Made by a program: the position numbers and the translations under genes. This document shows positions 1,393 to 13,612 of a stretch of DNA of 24,849 bases, piece after piece (position 1 is the first letter of the stretch; every line of letters begins with the position of its first letter). The stretch comes from a virus. The notes beneath the pieces were generated by a model. It did no database searches. It had not been told where the DNA came from and saw only the letters and a program-made list of their open reading frames with translations. Location: positions 1-24,849 of the IMG/VR virus record IMGVR_UViG_3300049846_001111; one strand, written 5' to 3'.

Positions 1393-1589
1393 TGTAATTC
1401 TCCTATTATTACATCTTTAATATTACCATTGCCGGTTTGTAATTCCAAATCGGAATTTTCCAACTTGGCGACAATCATTGCAAATGTCATGTATTCGCCA
1501 ACGGTCATTTCATACACGTCGACTTTTTCCAATATGGAAACCAACATTAACATTTGTTCGGTGGTGAATGTCAAATGGTATAAATCCAT
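1389..1589 (-). CDS. Small hypothetical protein (66 aa)
   Basis: This is a 66-residue protein beginning MDLYHLTFTTEQ, predicted mostly helical, with no recognised domain and no membrane segment. A longer in-frame reading to 1673 exists, but the ATG at 1589 is preferred. It forms a TAATG overlap with the stop of the 22-codon ORF upstream and has a GGTGG purine run a few bases before it. Its own stop overlaps the GTG of the next gene, so it sits inside a tightly coupled early operon. Function unknown. Confidence 0.65.
   Translation of the reverse strand: MDLYHLTFTTEQMLMLVSILEKVDVYEMTVGEYMTFAMIVAKLENSDLELQTGNGNIKDVIIGELQ
1394..1403 (-). promoter_or_regulatory. Shine-Dalgarno leader of the 112-aa gene (GGAGAATTAC variant)
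   Basis: Read on the minus strand the site is GGAGAATTAC, seven bases after GGAG to the GTG start at 1392. It differs from the GGAGAATCAC leader of other early genes by one base. That change converts a G-C pair with the small RNA loop (4007-4016) into a G-U pair, so pairing over ten positions is kept. It lies within the coding end of the 66-aa gene. Confidence 0.75.
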
Positions 1590-1985: not shown

Positions 1986-1996
1986 GTGATTCTCCA
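1986..1996 (-). promoter_or_regulatory. Conserved early-gene Shine-Dalgarno leader
   Basis: The minus strand reads TGGAGAATCAC directly before AATG. All 11 bases are complementary to the small RNA loop (GTGATTCTCCA, 4007-4017). The same leader is found before the genes starting at 2345 and 3886. Confidence 0.75.
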
Positions 1997-2346: not shown

Positions 2347-2357
2347 GTGATTCTCCA
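2347..2357 (-). promoter_or_regulatory. Conserved early-gene Shine-Dalgarno leader
   Basis: The minus strand reads TGGAGAATCAC, then GATG. It is complementary over 11 bases to the loop of the small RNA candidate at 4007-4017, and identical in those bases to the leader at 1986-1996. Confidence 0.75.
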
Positions 2358-2967: not shown

Positions 2968-3525
2968 TCAAAAATAAATATATTTATATGATTTCGCATC
3001 TGTTATTGTTTCGCGAATTGACCCGTTCCAATCATAATTTTGTTCACGAATTGTTATTGTTCCATCATTGTTTACCGCCAACACCAAAACGACATGTCCG
3101 TAATATCCATATTCGGAAACACCAACGGCGCCGGCACGTGGTTCCAATCCAACATTAAAACCCCATTGTCGCGCCCGTATGTACCACGTGTTTGCGTTTC
3201 CCATGCCATACGGTACACGCGTCCATGATGCAACGCCGTATGTACAATTGCCATACGCGTAATCATTGCCCGATGGATGTTCTGACCATAATTTATCAAT
3301 GCGTACTTGTTCATTGCGTTTTTTTATTTCGTTTTCGCGGTCGACATTAATTTGTTTTAATCGTTCAATGATTGATTGACCAAAATTTTTATTGAATGAA
3401 TCGTCCAATGCATTTACCGGCATCGCATTTACATGATGCGGTCGGAATAAAACAATTATCAATACACATACAATTACAACAAATGCATGTTTTGGTTTGA
3501 TTAAATTGTCGATTGCGTGTTTCAA
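2968..3525 (-). CDS. Membrane-anchored CHAP-domain peptidoglycan hydrolase
   Basis: The 185-residue protein has a positive N-terminus, one hydrophobic segment (residues ~13-27), a charged helical or coiled-coil linker (~50-78) and a C-terminal CHAP domain. The domain has the expected residues: Cys94 in GNCTYGVASW, His144 in YYGHVVLV and Glu161 with Asn163 in REQNY. CHAP enzymes cut peptidoglycan as amidases or endopeptidases. The start is TTG at 3525: the nearest upstream ATG is in another frame, and the next in-frame ATG would lose the membrane anchor. No good Shine-Dalgarno is visible, so expression may be low. It stands alone near the origin, far from the lysis cassette, so a role in entry, superinfection exclusion or regulated wall cutting is as likely as lysis. 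Whether the segment is an anchor or cleaved signal is unresolved. Confidence 0.85.
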   Translation of the reverse strand: MKHAIDNLIKPKHAFVVIVCVLIIVLFRPHHVNAMPVNALDDSFNKNFGQSIIERLKQINVDRENEIKKRNEQVRIDKLWSEHPSGNDYAYGNCTYGVASWTRVPYGMGNANTWYIRARQWGFNVGLEPRAGAVGVSEYGYYGHVVLVLAVNNDGTITIREQNYDWNGSIRETITDAKSYKYIYF

Positions 3526-3887: not shown

Positions 3888-3897
3888 GTGATTCTCC
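3888..3897 (-). promoter_or_regulatory. Conserved early-gene Shine-Dalgarno leader
   Basis: The minus strand reads GGAGAATCAC, then AATG. It is the third exact copy of the ten-base leader, complementary to 4007-4016 of the small RNA candidate. Confidence 0.75.
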
Positions 3898-3902
3898 TTT
3901 TT

Positions 3903-4001
3903 TTAATGACAATTACATTTTAACATAACCACAATAATAATGCAACCACGAAATATTATGGTATAATCAATGCCGGACAGGGTTTTCTCTTTTTCGTTCA
4001 T
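3903..4001 (-). CDS. Possible 32-residue membrane peptide (competes with the small RNA)
   Basis: An ATG at 4001-3999 opens 32 codons ending at 3903. The peptide starts MNEKEKTLSG and has a hydrophobic stretch (FRGCIIIVVML). GGTGGAGAATCAC lies upstream, but GGAG is 11 bases from the ATG instead of 7 as in its relatives. The minus-strand promoter for the two-TM gene sits inside this ORF. No minus promoter fits between its leader and the terminator-like hairpin at 4035-4056. It is listed because the leader copy may have arisen with such an ORF. It is low confidence compared with the plus-strand RNA reading. Confidence 0.22.
   Translation of the reverse strand: MNEKEKTLSGIDYTIIFRGCIIIVVMLKCNCH
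3917..3945 (-). promoter_or_regulatory. Promoter of the two-TM gene
   Basis: On the minus strand, -35 TTGCAT (3945-3940) and -10 TAAAAT (3922-3917) are separated by exactly 17 bases. Transcription would begin about 20 bases before the start codon. Its -35 occupies the zone where the -35 of the divergent small RNA promoter would be, so the two promoters overlap back to back. Confidence 0.55.
3959..3967 (+). promoter_or_regulatory. Extended -10 promoter of the small RNA candidate
   Basis: TGGTATAAT is a perfect extended -10 element. No good -35 is seen 17 bases upstream, which extended -10 promoters tolerate. The expected start (about 3974) coincides with the first base of the 5' hairpin stem of the RNA, a notable fit between promoter and structure. 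Confidence 0.6.
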
Positions 4002-4063
4002 TAAAAGTGATTCTCCACCTTGTCCGAAAAAATTGCGCAAGTTTTATGGCTTGCGCTTTTTTG
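3974..4063 (+). ncRNA. Small regulatory RNA candidate with anti-Shine-Dalgarno loop
   Basis: This is a ~90-nt plus-strand transcript in a region where all genes are on the minus strand. Parts in order: a 9-bp 5' stem CGGACAGGG/CCTTGTCCG (3974-3982 with 4018-4026, one G-U); a 35-base, pyrimidine-rich open loop; a six-A linker; and a 7-bp terminator hairpin GCGCAAG/CTTGCGC with a T6 tail (4035-4062). The loop carries GTGATTCTCCA (4007-4017), complementary to the Shine-Dalgarno leaders of the genes starting at 1984, 2345 and 3886, and to that of 1392 with one G-U. TTTCGTTCA (3992-4000) pairs with the first codons of the 1392 gene. Predicted effect: block ribosome binding on early mRNAs. Elements are seen; transcription and function are inferred. 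A competing minus-strand ORF overlaps it. Confidence 0.55.
4035..4062 (+). terminator. Intrinsic terminator of the small RNA candidate
   Basis: A perfect 7-bp stem GCGCAAG/CTTGCGC with an 8-base loop is followed by six T. The opposite strand also has a T-run (AATTTTTT), so it may work in both directions. It would then stop any late-operon read-through before the two-TM gene. Confidence 0.8.
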
Positions 4064-4205: not shown

Positions 4206-4237
4206 AAACCGACAACACGGAGTCGGTTTTTTGCTTT
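4206..4237. terminator. Bidirectional intrinsic terminator at the end of the late operon
   Basis: AAACCGAC (4206-4213) and GTCGGTTT (4222-4229) form an 8-bp stem with an 8-base loop. On the plus strand six T follow, then GCTTTT. On the minus strand TTAATGTGTTTTTG follows. It lies 10 bases past the stop of the last late gene (4247) and faces plus-strand transcription from the small RNA side. Confidence 0.75.
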
Positions 4238-4246
4238 TATAAGAGT

Positions 4247-11807: not shown

Positions 11808-13612
11808 ACGATTGGACTTATCCCAACTCCTGCGAGATTAAAATTGCGGTCGATTCGGCGCAATACAAATGATTCATCTTGTTCATTGTGTATTTCACCT
11901 ATATTAATATTAACTGGTTGCCCTGAATTTTGCATCATCGCTTGTGATTGTTGGTTGGAATACACTTGTGAACCGCGTGGCAAATTGACCAATTCCGGAC
12001 CGCGTTCACCAACAATTGCCATTCCGCCAGGCGCATATGCCGTTCCACGTGCAAATCGTGGCAAATGAATCCTATTTTCCAAATTGCCAGGTAATCCCTT
12101 TAACGCGCCTTTCAATGCGCCCTCAATGATGCCAATGACCGCATTGATAAACCCTTTGCCAATTCCCATTGCCAAATTGCCCCAATTGATACTTCCAATC
12201 ATATTGAATACGTTTTTAACGGTATCCCAAATTCTATCCCACACCCAACGCATCGCGTGCCATATGCCAACAAATACATTCACCCAATTAATCGATGCAA
12301 CAAATGAAATGACTTTGTAAATCATGCCGGCGATTAAAATTGGTATTTTGATTGGCAACGTTGCAAAAAACCCTATCACCTCGCCGACGACTGTCCAAAA
12401 ATTATCTTTCAACCAAATCACTTTTGCAACAATCCAATTGAACGCCGTCATAATACCATTCGGCAATGTAACCGTGAAAAATGTAAACAACGAAATGAAT
12501 ATGTTGATAACAACCGAAACGGCTGACCATACGATGCGCAATGCATTTATTAACACGTACAATGCGCCAACCAATATAACGCCAATGACCGGTGCCAACG
12601 GCACAATTACTTGTTGCCATAATCGCTGTAACGTTGGCAATAATTGCGTTTCAAACGTATTCCATAACGCCATCAATGACGGCATAAGAAAATCAATCAC
12701 TTTTTTCATTGTTTCAAAAGCGGTCTTACTCCATTGATGTATGTTGAATAAGAAATTAACAAACGCCGAATCTTCGGCTTGACCAAATATTCCGCCATTA
12801 AAGTTGCCCGTTGTTAATGTATAAATCAAATTTTTAATCGAATTGATTGTTCCATCCCAATCTATTTTGGAAACAATATCCGCCATTTTGACAATGAACG
12901 GTCCAATGCCTTTTGCAATGGCACCACCGAATGATTCTTGCATGTTACCCAATGCAACTTTCAACCGCGCCATTCCGCCGGCGGATGTTTGTTTTGCAAC
13001 TTCGTTTGTAAATTTAAGGTTTTGCGCAAACCCCTCGTTAATGGCTTTGACCTTTTGTTCTTCGGTTCCAAATTCAATTATTTTCTTTTGCGCTTCGGTA
13101 AACCGTATACCGGATTTTTCCAATACGCCGAATTGACCATTCAACGCTTTTGCAATCATGTTTGCGGAATCGGCAAGCTGTTCGCCGGATGCGTTCACAC
13201 CATACTGGTTGACTGCCAAATCCGCCAATGAACCGCCCAAATTTTGAACGGCTTTGTTTGATAATCCGAATGTCGATAATTGCGCCAACCCCAATTTAAT
13301 ATTATCGCCATCCAATACGCCCTTGCGTTCCAATTGGTCCGCCAATGCAGATGTTTGTGCCAATTGCGCTTTGGTGGCATGTGTTACGTCAATAACAGCG
13401 TGTTCCAATGATTTTTGTGCAATTTCAGTTTCCTGATACGCTTTGACCGCCATTGTGCCAAACGCGACCGCAGCCGCGCCGGCAACCGCCGTTCCAACGG
13501 CAACAGCTTTTCCAACATTACCTAATTTTTTGCTAATATTTTCGGATGCGGAATCAAATTTGGATGTATCCAATTTTAAATCATAATGAATGGCACCGAC
13601 TTCTGTACTCAT
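11804..13612 (-). CDS. Tape measure protein
   Basis: The 602-residue protein sets tail length and is ejected into the host membrane. N-terminal charged and Ala-rich helices with a hydrophobic patch (~33-60) are followed by a conserved tape-measure core (~75-230). Several TM-like segments lie in the middle (~335-470, e.g. VIGVILVGALYVLINAL), and a C-terminal motif reads GGMAIVGERGPELVNLPRGS, seen in many tape measures. At the usual ~0.15 nm per residue the tail would be around 90 nm. No peptidase or muralytic insert is visible. ATG overlaps the upstream stop (ATGA). Confidence 0.9.
   Translation of the reverse strand: MSTEVGAIHYDLKLDTSKFDSASENISKKLGNVGKAVAVGTAVAGAAAVAFGTMAVKAYQETEIAQKSLEHAVIDVTHATKAQLAQTSALADQLERKGVLDGDNIKLGLAQLSTFGLSNKAVQNLGGSLADLAVNQYGVNASGEQLADSANMIAKALNGQFGVLEKSGIRFTEAQKKIIEFGTEEQKVKAINEGFAQNLKFTNEVAKQTSAGGMARLKVALGNMQESFGGAIAKGIGPFIVKMADIVSKIDWDGTINSIKNLIYTLTTGNFNGGIFGQAEDSAFVNFLFNIHQWSKTAFETMKKVIDFLMPSLMALWNTFETQLLPTLQRLWQQVIVPLAPVIGVILVGALYVLINALRIVWSAVSVVINIFISLFTFFTVTLPNGIMTAFNWIVAKVIWLKDNFWTVVGEVIGFFATLPIKIPILIAGMIYKVISFVASINWVNVFVGIWHAMRWVWDRIWDTVKNVFNMIGSINWGNLAMGIGKGFINAVIGIIEGALKGALKGLPGNLENRIHLPRFARGTAYAPGGMAIVGERGPELVNLPRGSQVYSNQQSQAMMQNSGQPVNINIGEIHNEQDESFVLRRIDRNFNLAGVGISPIV

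Follow-up and report, generated by a model that had tools for sequence, protein, structure and literature searches.

Gene content of the window and its probable host

The sequence analysed here (the window, taken as a whole), a 24.8-kb piece of a tailed-phage genome deposited as a virus record, has essentially all its genes on the minus strand. It encodes head and tail proteins, an endolysin, a small holin-like protein (5083-4871), a CHAP protein, a Sak/Rad52-type annealing protein and the products of further small genes. No known phages with DNA similarity to the window were found. The endolysin matches the TM7 phage DolZOral124_53_65 across 71% of its length, and this phage has KGG and lysozyme-like genes that resemble those recurring in the relatives described below. 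Based on these similarities, we infer that the host is likely to belong to the Saccharibacteria (TM7). A scan of DolZOral124_53_65 itself revealed no clear small-RNA unit.

Several non-coding elements were noticed in the window besides the one that is the subject of this study. The minus strand following the CHAP gene (2958-2826) has another promoter-terminator unit, in which TGGTATACT precedes ~120 nt of strongly folding sequence and a terminator; it may encode a second small RNA. On the plus strand, within the non-coding region 2379-2967, a TTGACA / TGCTATAAT pair is followed by a short hairpin and a terminator, TGACCCCACGTTACGGGGTCA-TTTT (2689-2759), which could yield an RNA of ~45 nt. A further bidirectional terminator-like hairpin (4206-4240) is located between o104 and the small RNA.

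Anatomy and fold of the predicted small RNA

Divergent from o87, a gene for a small membrane protein, and not overlapping it, lies a plus-strand unit made up of an extended -10 element, a long-looped recognition hairpin, an A6 linker (4027-4032) and an intrinsic terminator (Table 1). The hairpin stem pairs CGGACAGGGT with ACCTTGTCCG over 10 bp, including G-U pairing, and encloses a loop of 33 nt. The predicted folding energy is -33.8 kcal/mol (z -6.2) for the plus strand versus -23.5 kcal/mol (z -3.6) for the minus strand; the plus strand folds better because its G-U pair becomes A-C on the other strand. The -35 region is poor, so the promoter call depends on the extended -10 element, and the presence of a dedicated promoter and intrinsic terminator is inferred from sequence alone. 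Rfam gave no match at the unit, neither at the gathering threshold nor up to an E value of 5.

Table 1 Positions of the small RNA, its predicted target leaders and associated features in the window.
Feature	Position	Strand	Details
Extended -10 promoter element	3959-3967	+	TGGTATAAT; similar element in six other family members
Small RNA	3974-4062	+	~89 nt, predicted start ~3974; supported by fold energy and structure-only scan score
Recognition hairpin	3974-4026	+	Stem 3974-3983 / 4017-4026, loop 3984-4016
Seed	4007-4017	+	GTGATTCTCCA; complementary to four gene leaders
Intrinsic terminator	4035-4062	+	Stem-loop 4035-4056 (9-bp stem, 4-nt loop), T6 4057-4062
Leader of o87 (3886-3623)	3888-3897	-	GGAGAATCAC; 10-nt match; duplex -18.9 kcal/mol
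Leader of o96 (2345-2055)	2347-2357	-	TGGAGAATCAC; 11-nt match
Leader of o83 (1984-1733)	1986-1996	-	TGGAGAATCAC; 11-nt match; duplex -18.6 kcal/mol
Leader of o112 (1392-1054, GTG start)	1394-1403	-	GGAGAATTAC; 10-nt match with one G-U; duplex -19.9 kcal/mol
Promoter-like element for o87	3917-3945	-	TTGCAT, 17 nt, TAAAAT with TG extension; faces away from the small RNA
32-codon antisense ORF	3903-4001	-	Competing reading; lacks a counterpart in six other members of the family

Complementarity to ribosome-binding leaders

When up to one mismatch is allowed, GTGATTCTCC is present five times in the window versus 0.82 expected, a count that was reached in no shuffle. Four of these occurrences are the gene leaders listed in Table 1 and the fifth is the loop of the small RNA. 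The leaders lie ~80 to 2600 bases from the unit, their predicted duplexes with the loop range from -18.6 to -20.1 kcal/mol, and one of the genes, o112, is directly upstream of the annealing protein gene (1069-452; Rad52 match). Taken alone, the over-representation of the motif and its complementarity to the loop are no more than suggestive.

The unit and its leader matches had been called in an original prediction made without database searches. The unit it described (extended -10 element, hairpin, A6 and T6 terminator on the plus strand) was confirmed at the same positions, as was complementarity to four leaders over 11, 11, 10 and 10 nt, the last with one G-U. The 9-bp stem and 35-base loop proposed there become the 10 bp and 33 nt given above, and the loop, which had been regarded as open, is so only in part: in the predicted fold three of the four bases at the start of the seed lie in a weak inner helix and TTCTCC is exposed.

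Equivalent units in related phages

The decisive evidence for the small RNA is comparative. Relatives were gathered through searches with the capsid, annealing-protein and lytic-transglycosylase sequences and were scanned for units of the same structure without reference to the leaders. In the ~733 kb covered by this structure-only scan, the window (35.3) and L048 (35.1) alone exceeded a score of 26.3, and no unit of 26 or above was found in 478 kb of shuffled sequence. The same scan applied to new loci picked out L089 (36.3). L113, L047, L107 and L104 were added through leader-guided or looser scans; leaders helped to find L113, L107 and L104, and L113 and L047 also pass a structure-only threshold. 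The window, L048 and L089 are thus the clean, leader-independent cases.

The loops of the six further units differ in sequence, yet every one corresponds to leaders in the phage that carries it, up to six per phage. The L048 unit has the anatomy of the window unit and an unrelated sequence, and adjoins a small membrane-protein gene; its loop holds TGTTCACTCCA, which corresponds to the leaders TGGAGTGAACA-ATG (5626) and GGAGTGAACA-ATG (3499), and a second stretch of the loop, TTTATCTCCT, matches the leader at 2488. In L089, 14 nt of the loop are complementary to the leader of a membrane-protein gene, a second leader copy being located at the contig edge. In L113, L047 and L107 the long-loop hairpin doubles as the terminator. 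The seed of L113 is TTAGTCCTTTC, with leaders at 1422, 2001 and 3992, the L047 loop has a 12-nt match to the leader of a KGG-type gene at 3912, and the L107 loop has matches of 9-10 nt to three leaders. L104 carries CTCCTTGTTTAATTG, which is complementary over 14-15 nt to five leaders; a sixth leader is matched over 10 nt. In the window, L048, L113, L047, L104 and apparently L089, the RNA and one of its target genes are arranged divergently, and promoter-like elements comparable to that of o87 face the other way in each of these five relatives.

The window RNA had no blastn match in the relatives, which is expected if the RNA sequence has been rewritten between phages. An exact search of the viral collection with the seed returned only two records, both already known, and a search for close relatives via o87 found none. 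Structural units in G056, G050, G064 and G028 had no convincing leader match. Those of G028 and G029 are structurally fair with weak leader matches (one of 10 nt in G029), and G029 and G063 remain possible members.

Other units were observed in the course of the scans. L120 contains a candidate eighth member (13520-13610, plus strand), with TGTTATAAT, a loop containing TCCTCCCAT, which is complementary to a ribosome-binding leader, and a terminator. Three well-formed hairpin-terminator units of a 77-kb phage (L108 5589, L110 4562 and L111 68, plus strand) lack convincing leader matches. In L002 (~12400, minus strand), CGTATAAT precedes a hairpin-terminator with the loop TTTCCCCACCACT, and the leader of the neighbouring gene has GGGGAAT.

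Co-divergence of loops and leaders

An earlier test based on crude gene starts and shuffled loops was too noisy and left out true nearby leaders, and a matrix in which loops were swapped between phages was used instead. The diagonal dominates this matrix, in that a phage's own loop gives the longest match and the most leaders. The longest own matches (leaders in parentheses) were 11 nt (3) for the window, 11 nt (3) for L048, 14 nt (2) for L089, 11 nt (3) for L113, 12 nt (2) for L047 and 10 nt (3) for L107. Random windows from the same record reached the observed matching in 0 to 0.7% of cases for these six members: 5/7050, 18/5662, 0/1365, 0/7736, 4/5666 and 34/4904, respectively. The comparison is a conservative one, since the antisense of the repeated leaders is itself among the random windows.

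Duplex energies calculated with RNAduplex for all seven loops gave a mean of -18.6 for own leaders versus -11.8 under permutation, and among the 5040 loop-to-leader assignments the true labelling alone reached the best mean pairing energy (1/5040). Exchanging the labels of L113 and L047, which have a seed in common, comes close to the true labelling. The own loop was best for 17 of the 22 targets. As some members were found through leaders, the swap and permutation tests are partly circular. Control searches of lambda, T4 (50 kb), P22, A118 and Sarge yielded three units and one isolated 10-nt match, with no comparable case.

Seed and target leaders thus co-vary, and loops and leaders have diverged together across seven phages. 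Covariation among related phages had been named in the original prediction as a check, and once run it showed loops following the leaders of their own phage in six further phages. The trans-acting reading proposed there is supported, as the hairpin-terminator unit persists while its loop co-varies with the phage's own leaders; transcription and repression are still inferred. Against this reading, shared leaders without a matching RNA exist, for example in G026 and in L047, where ACGAACGGAGAACGACAATG is common to the leaders of two genes (254 and 3704, minus strand) but an RNA carrying the complementary sequence was not found.

The comparison also bears on other explanations of the window unit. 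The plus-strand loop could be the mere complement of a minus-strand leader serving the 32-codon ORF (4001-3903), with the hairpin incidental, and in the window an ATG 5 nt after the leader copy does open this frame. This reading is rejected as very unlikely: it fails in six of the seven cases, the window alone having an ORF behind the antisense leader copy, the plus strand folds better, all seven units have their -10 element and terminator on the RNA strand, and the promoter-like element for o87 falls inside the ORF. Relatives that kept the frame and lost the hairpins would have refuted the original prediction; the opposite was found. The leader motif could alternatively be a DNA operator bound by a regulatory protein, with the small-RNA copy one more site, as repetition of the motif upstream of several genes might suggest. 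We consider this hardly tenable, as in all seven phages the RNA copy is antisense to the leaders and within a hairpin loop before a terminator, and the leader copies coincide exactly with the Shine-Dalgarno sequence. Finally, the RNA might mainly target host mRNAs through an anti-Shine-Dalgarno-like loop, the phage matches being by-products of a shared ribosome-binding sequence. Several loops do have CCTTTC or TCTCC, complements of the generic ribosome-binding sequence, but the matches reach 10-15 nt, beyond this core, and track the leaders of each phage and not a fixed sequence, which makes this proposal equally improbable.

Predicted target genes across phages

The predicted targets in the window, L048, L089, L113 and L104 each include a membrane-protein gene. 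That of the window, o87, was assigned by position and character, with no sequence homology to the others detected. The 65-aa membrane protein is homologous between the targets of L048 and L104, and between those of L089 and L113. L113 and L047 both have KGG-type targets, and an o96 homologue is among the targets of L104 (6238; phage G053). In these pairs the homologous targets have different leaders, which follow the loop of their phage. The remaining targets include, in L104, a 189-aa protein whose function is unknown and, in L107, a Cas4/exonuclease-like protein. None of the window targets o112, o83, o96 and o87 matched antirepressor families.

The exact word targeted by the L104 RNA, CAATTAAACAAGGAG, is present in the L048 leader at 3499 (minus strand; duplex -24.1). 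Cross-phage repression of this leader by the L104 RNA is conceivable.

Discussion

We propose that the unit encodes an intrinsically terminated, trans-acting antisense RNA of ~89 nt and that this RNA prevents early and accessory genes from being translated, a reading we regard as likely (probability about 0.8). The hairpin loop would pair with the sequence common to the ribosome-binding leaders of o112, o83, o96 and o87, from the Shine-Dalgarno sequence to one or two bases before the start codon. Because the pairing covers this region, blocked 30S binding is the most likely effect, and the targets would be shut down together. The anatomy, the complementarity and the co-divergence of loop and leader in seven phages are shown; that the RNA is transcribed, that it represses its targets, when it acts and what biological role it has are inferences, there being no RNA evidence at all, and the early status of the targets is inferred from gene content. 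The pairing evidence is silent on the sign of the effect, and the RNA could instead stabilise or activate the mRNAs, terminate transcription early or be titrated by the mRNAs. These routes appear unlikely, as the leaders are short and the pairing extends from the Shine-Dalgarno sequence to a few bases before the start codon, where a translation block is usual.

In the antisense-repressor reading, one loop word apparently controls several genes with a common leader, and between phages this word changes along with the leaders. The altered pairs provide natural compensatory evidence for pairing, with no experiment needed, and are simple and portable enough for testing in laboratory hosts. A bolder reading, which we consider improbable on present evidence, is that a diffusible antisense RNA acts as an immunity and timing factor in Saccharibacteria viruses, with one leader word holding a gene set off. 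If so, joint changes of loop and leader would set which phages cross-repress each other, an RNA-based heteroimmunity. None of lysogeny, immunity or shut-off has been shown as the role, nor have the sign of regulation and its timing. No tyrosine integrase was seen in any confirmed member, most records being fragments, and the sole match of an integrase search across the records was in G056, not a confirmed family member, which leaves the lifestyle unsettled.

The RNA switch appears to be real and so far undescribed; a literature search revealed no description of a regulator of this type from Saccharibacteria phages. A few model phages are known to have antisense RNAs with a single target. Among the trans-acting small RNAs encoded by phages are VpdS (VP882) and PreS (lambda) (PMC12197685); they are Hfq-dependent and host targets are prominent among those they act on, whereas the window RNA has no known chaperone and the targets found for it are leaders in the same phage. 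The P4 CI RNA is a small stem-loop RNA, complementary to phage leaders, that controls the early operon by transcription termination. The window RNA is likewise a small, leader-complementary stem-loop, but its pairing sits on the Shine-Dalgarno sequence. The sar RNA of P22, also short and antisense, has a promoter and a terminator of its own and hinders initiation of ant translation (PMC12197685); the window RNA resembles it in having both elements and, by inference, in acting at translation-initiation sites. As sar is cis-encoded opposite a single target, whereas the window RNA is encoded elsewhere and has several, the latter is not a sar member. Nor is it a member of the c4 family, as c4 acts on the ant mRNA, while the window RNA is separately promoted, targets a leader common to several genes without antirepressor matches and belongs to units without an Rfam match. 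In the c4 RNA of P1 and P7, antisense loop sequences pair around the ribosome-binding site, and this pairing is phage-specific (heteroimmunity) (PMC12197685); what the window RNA has in common with c4 is the predicted phage-specific pairing of an antisense loop at the ribosome-binding site.
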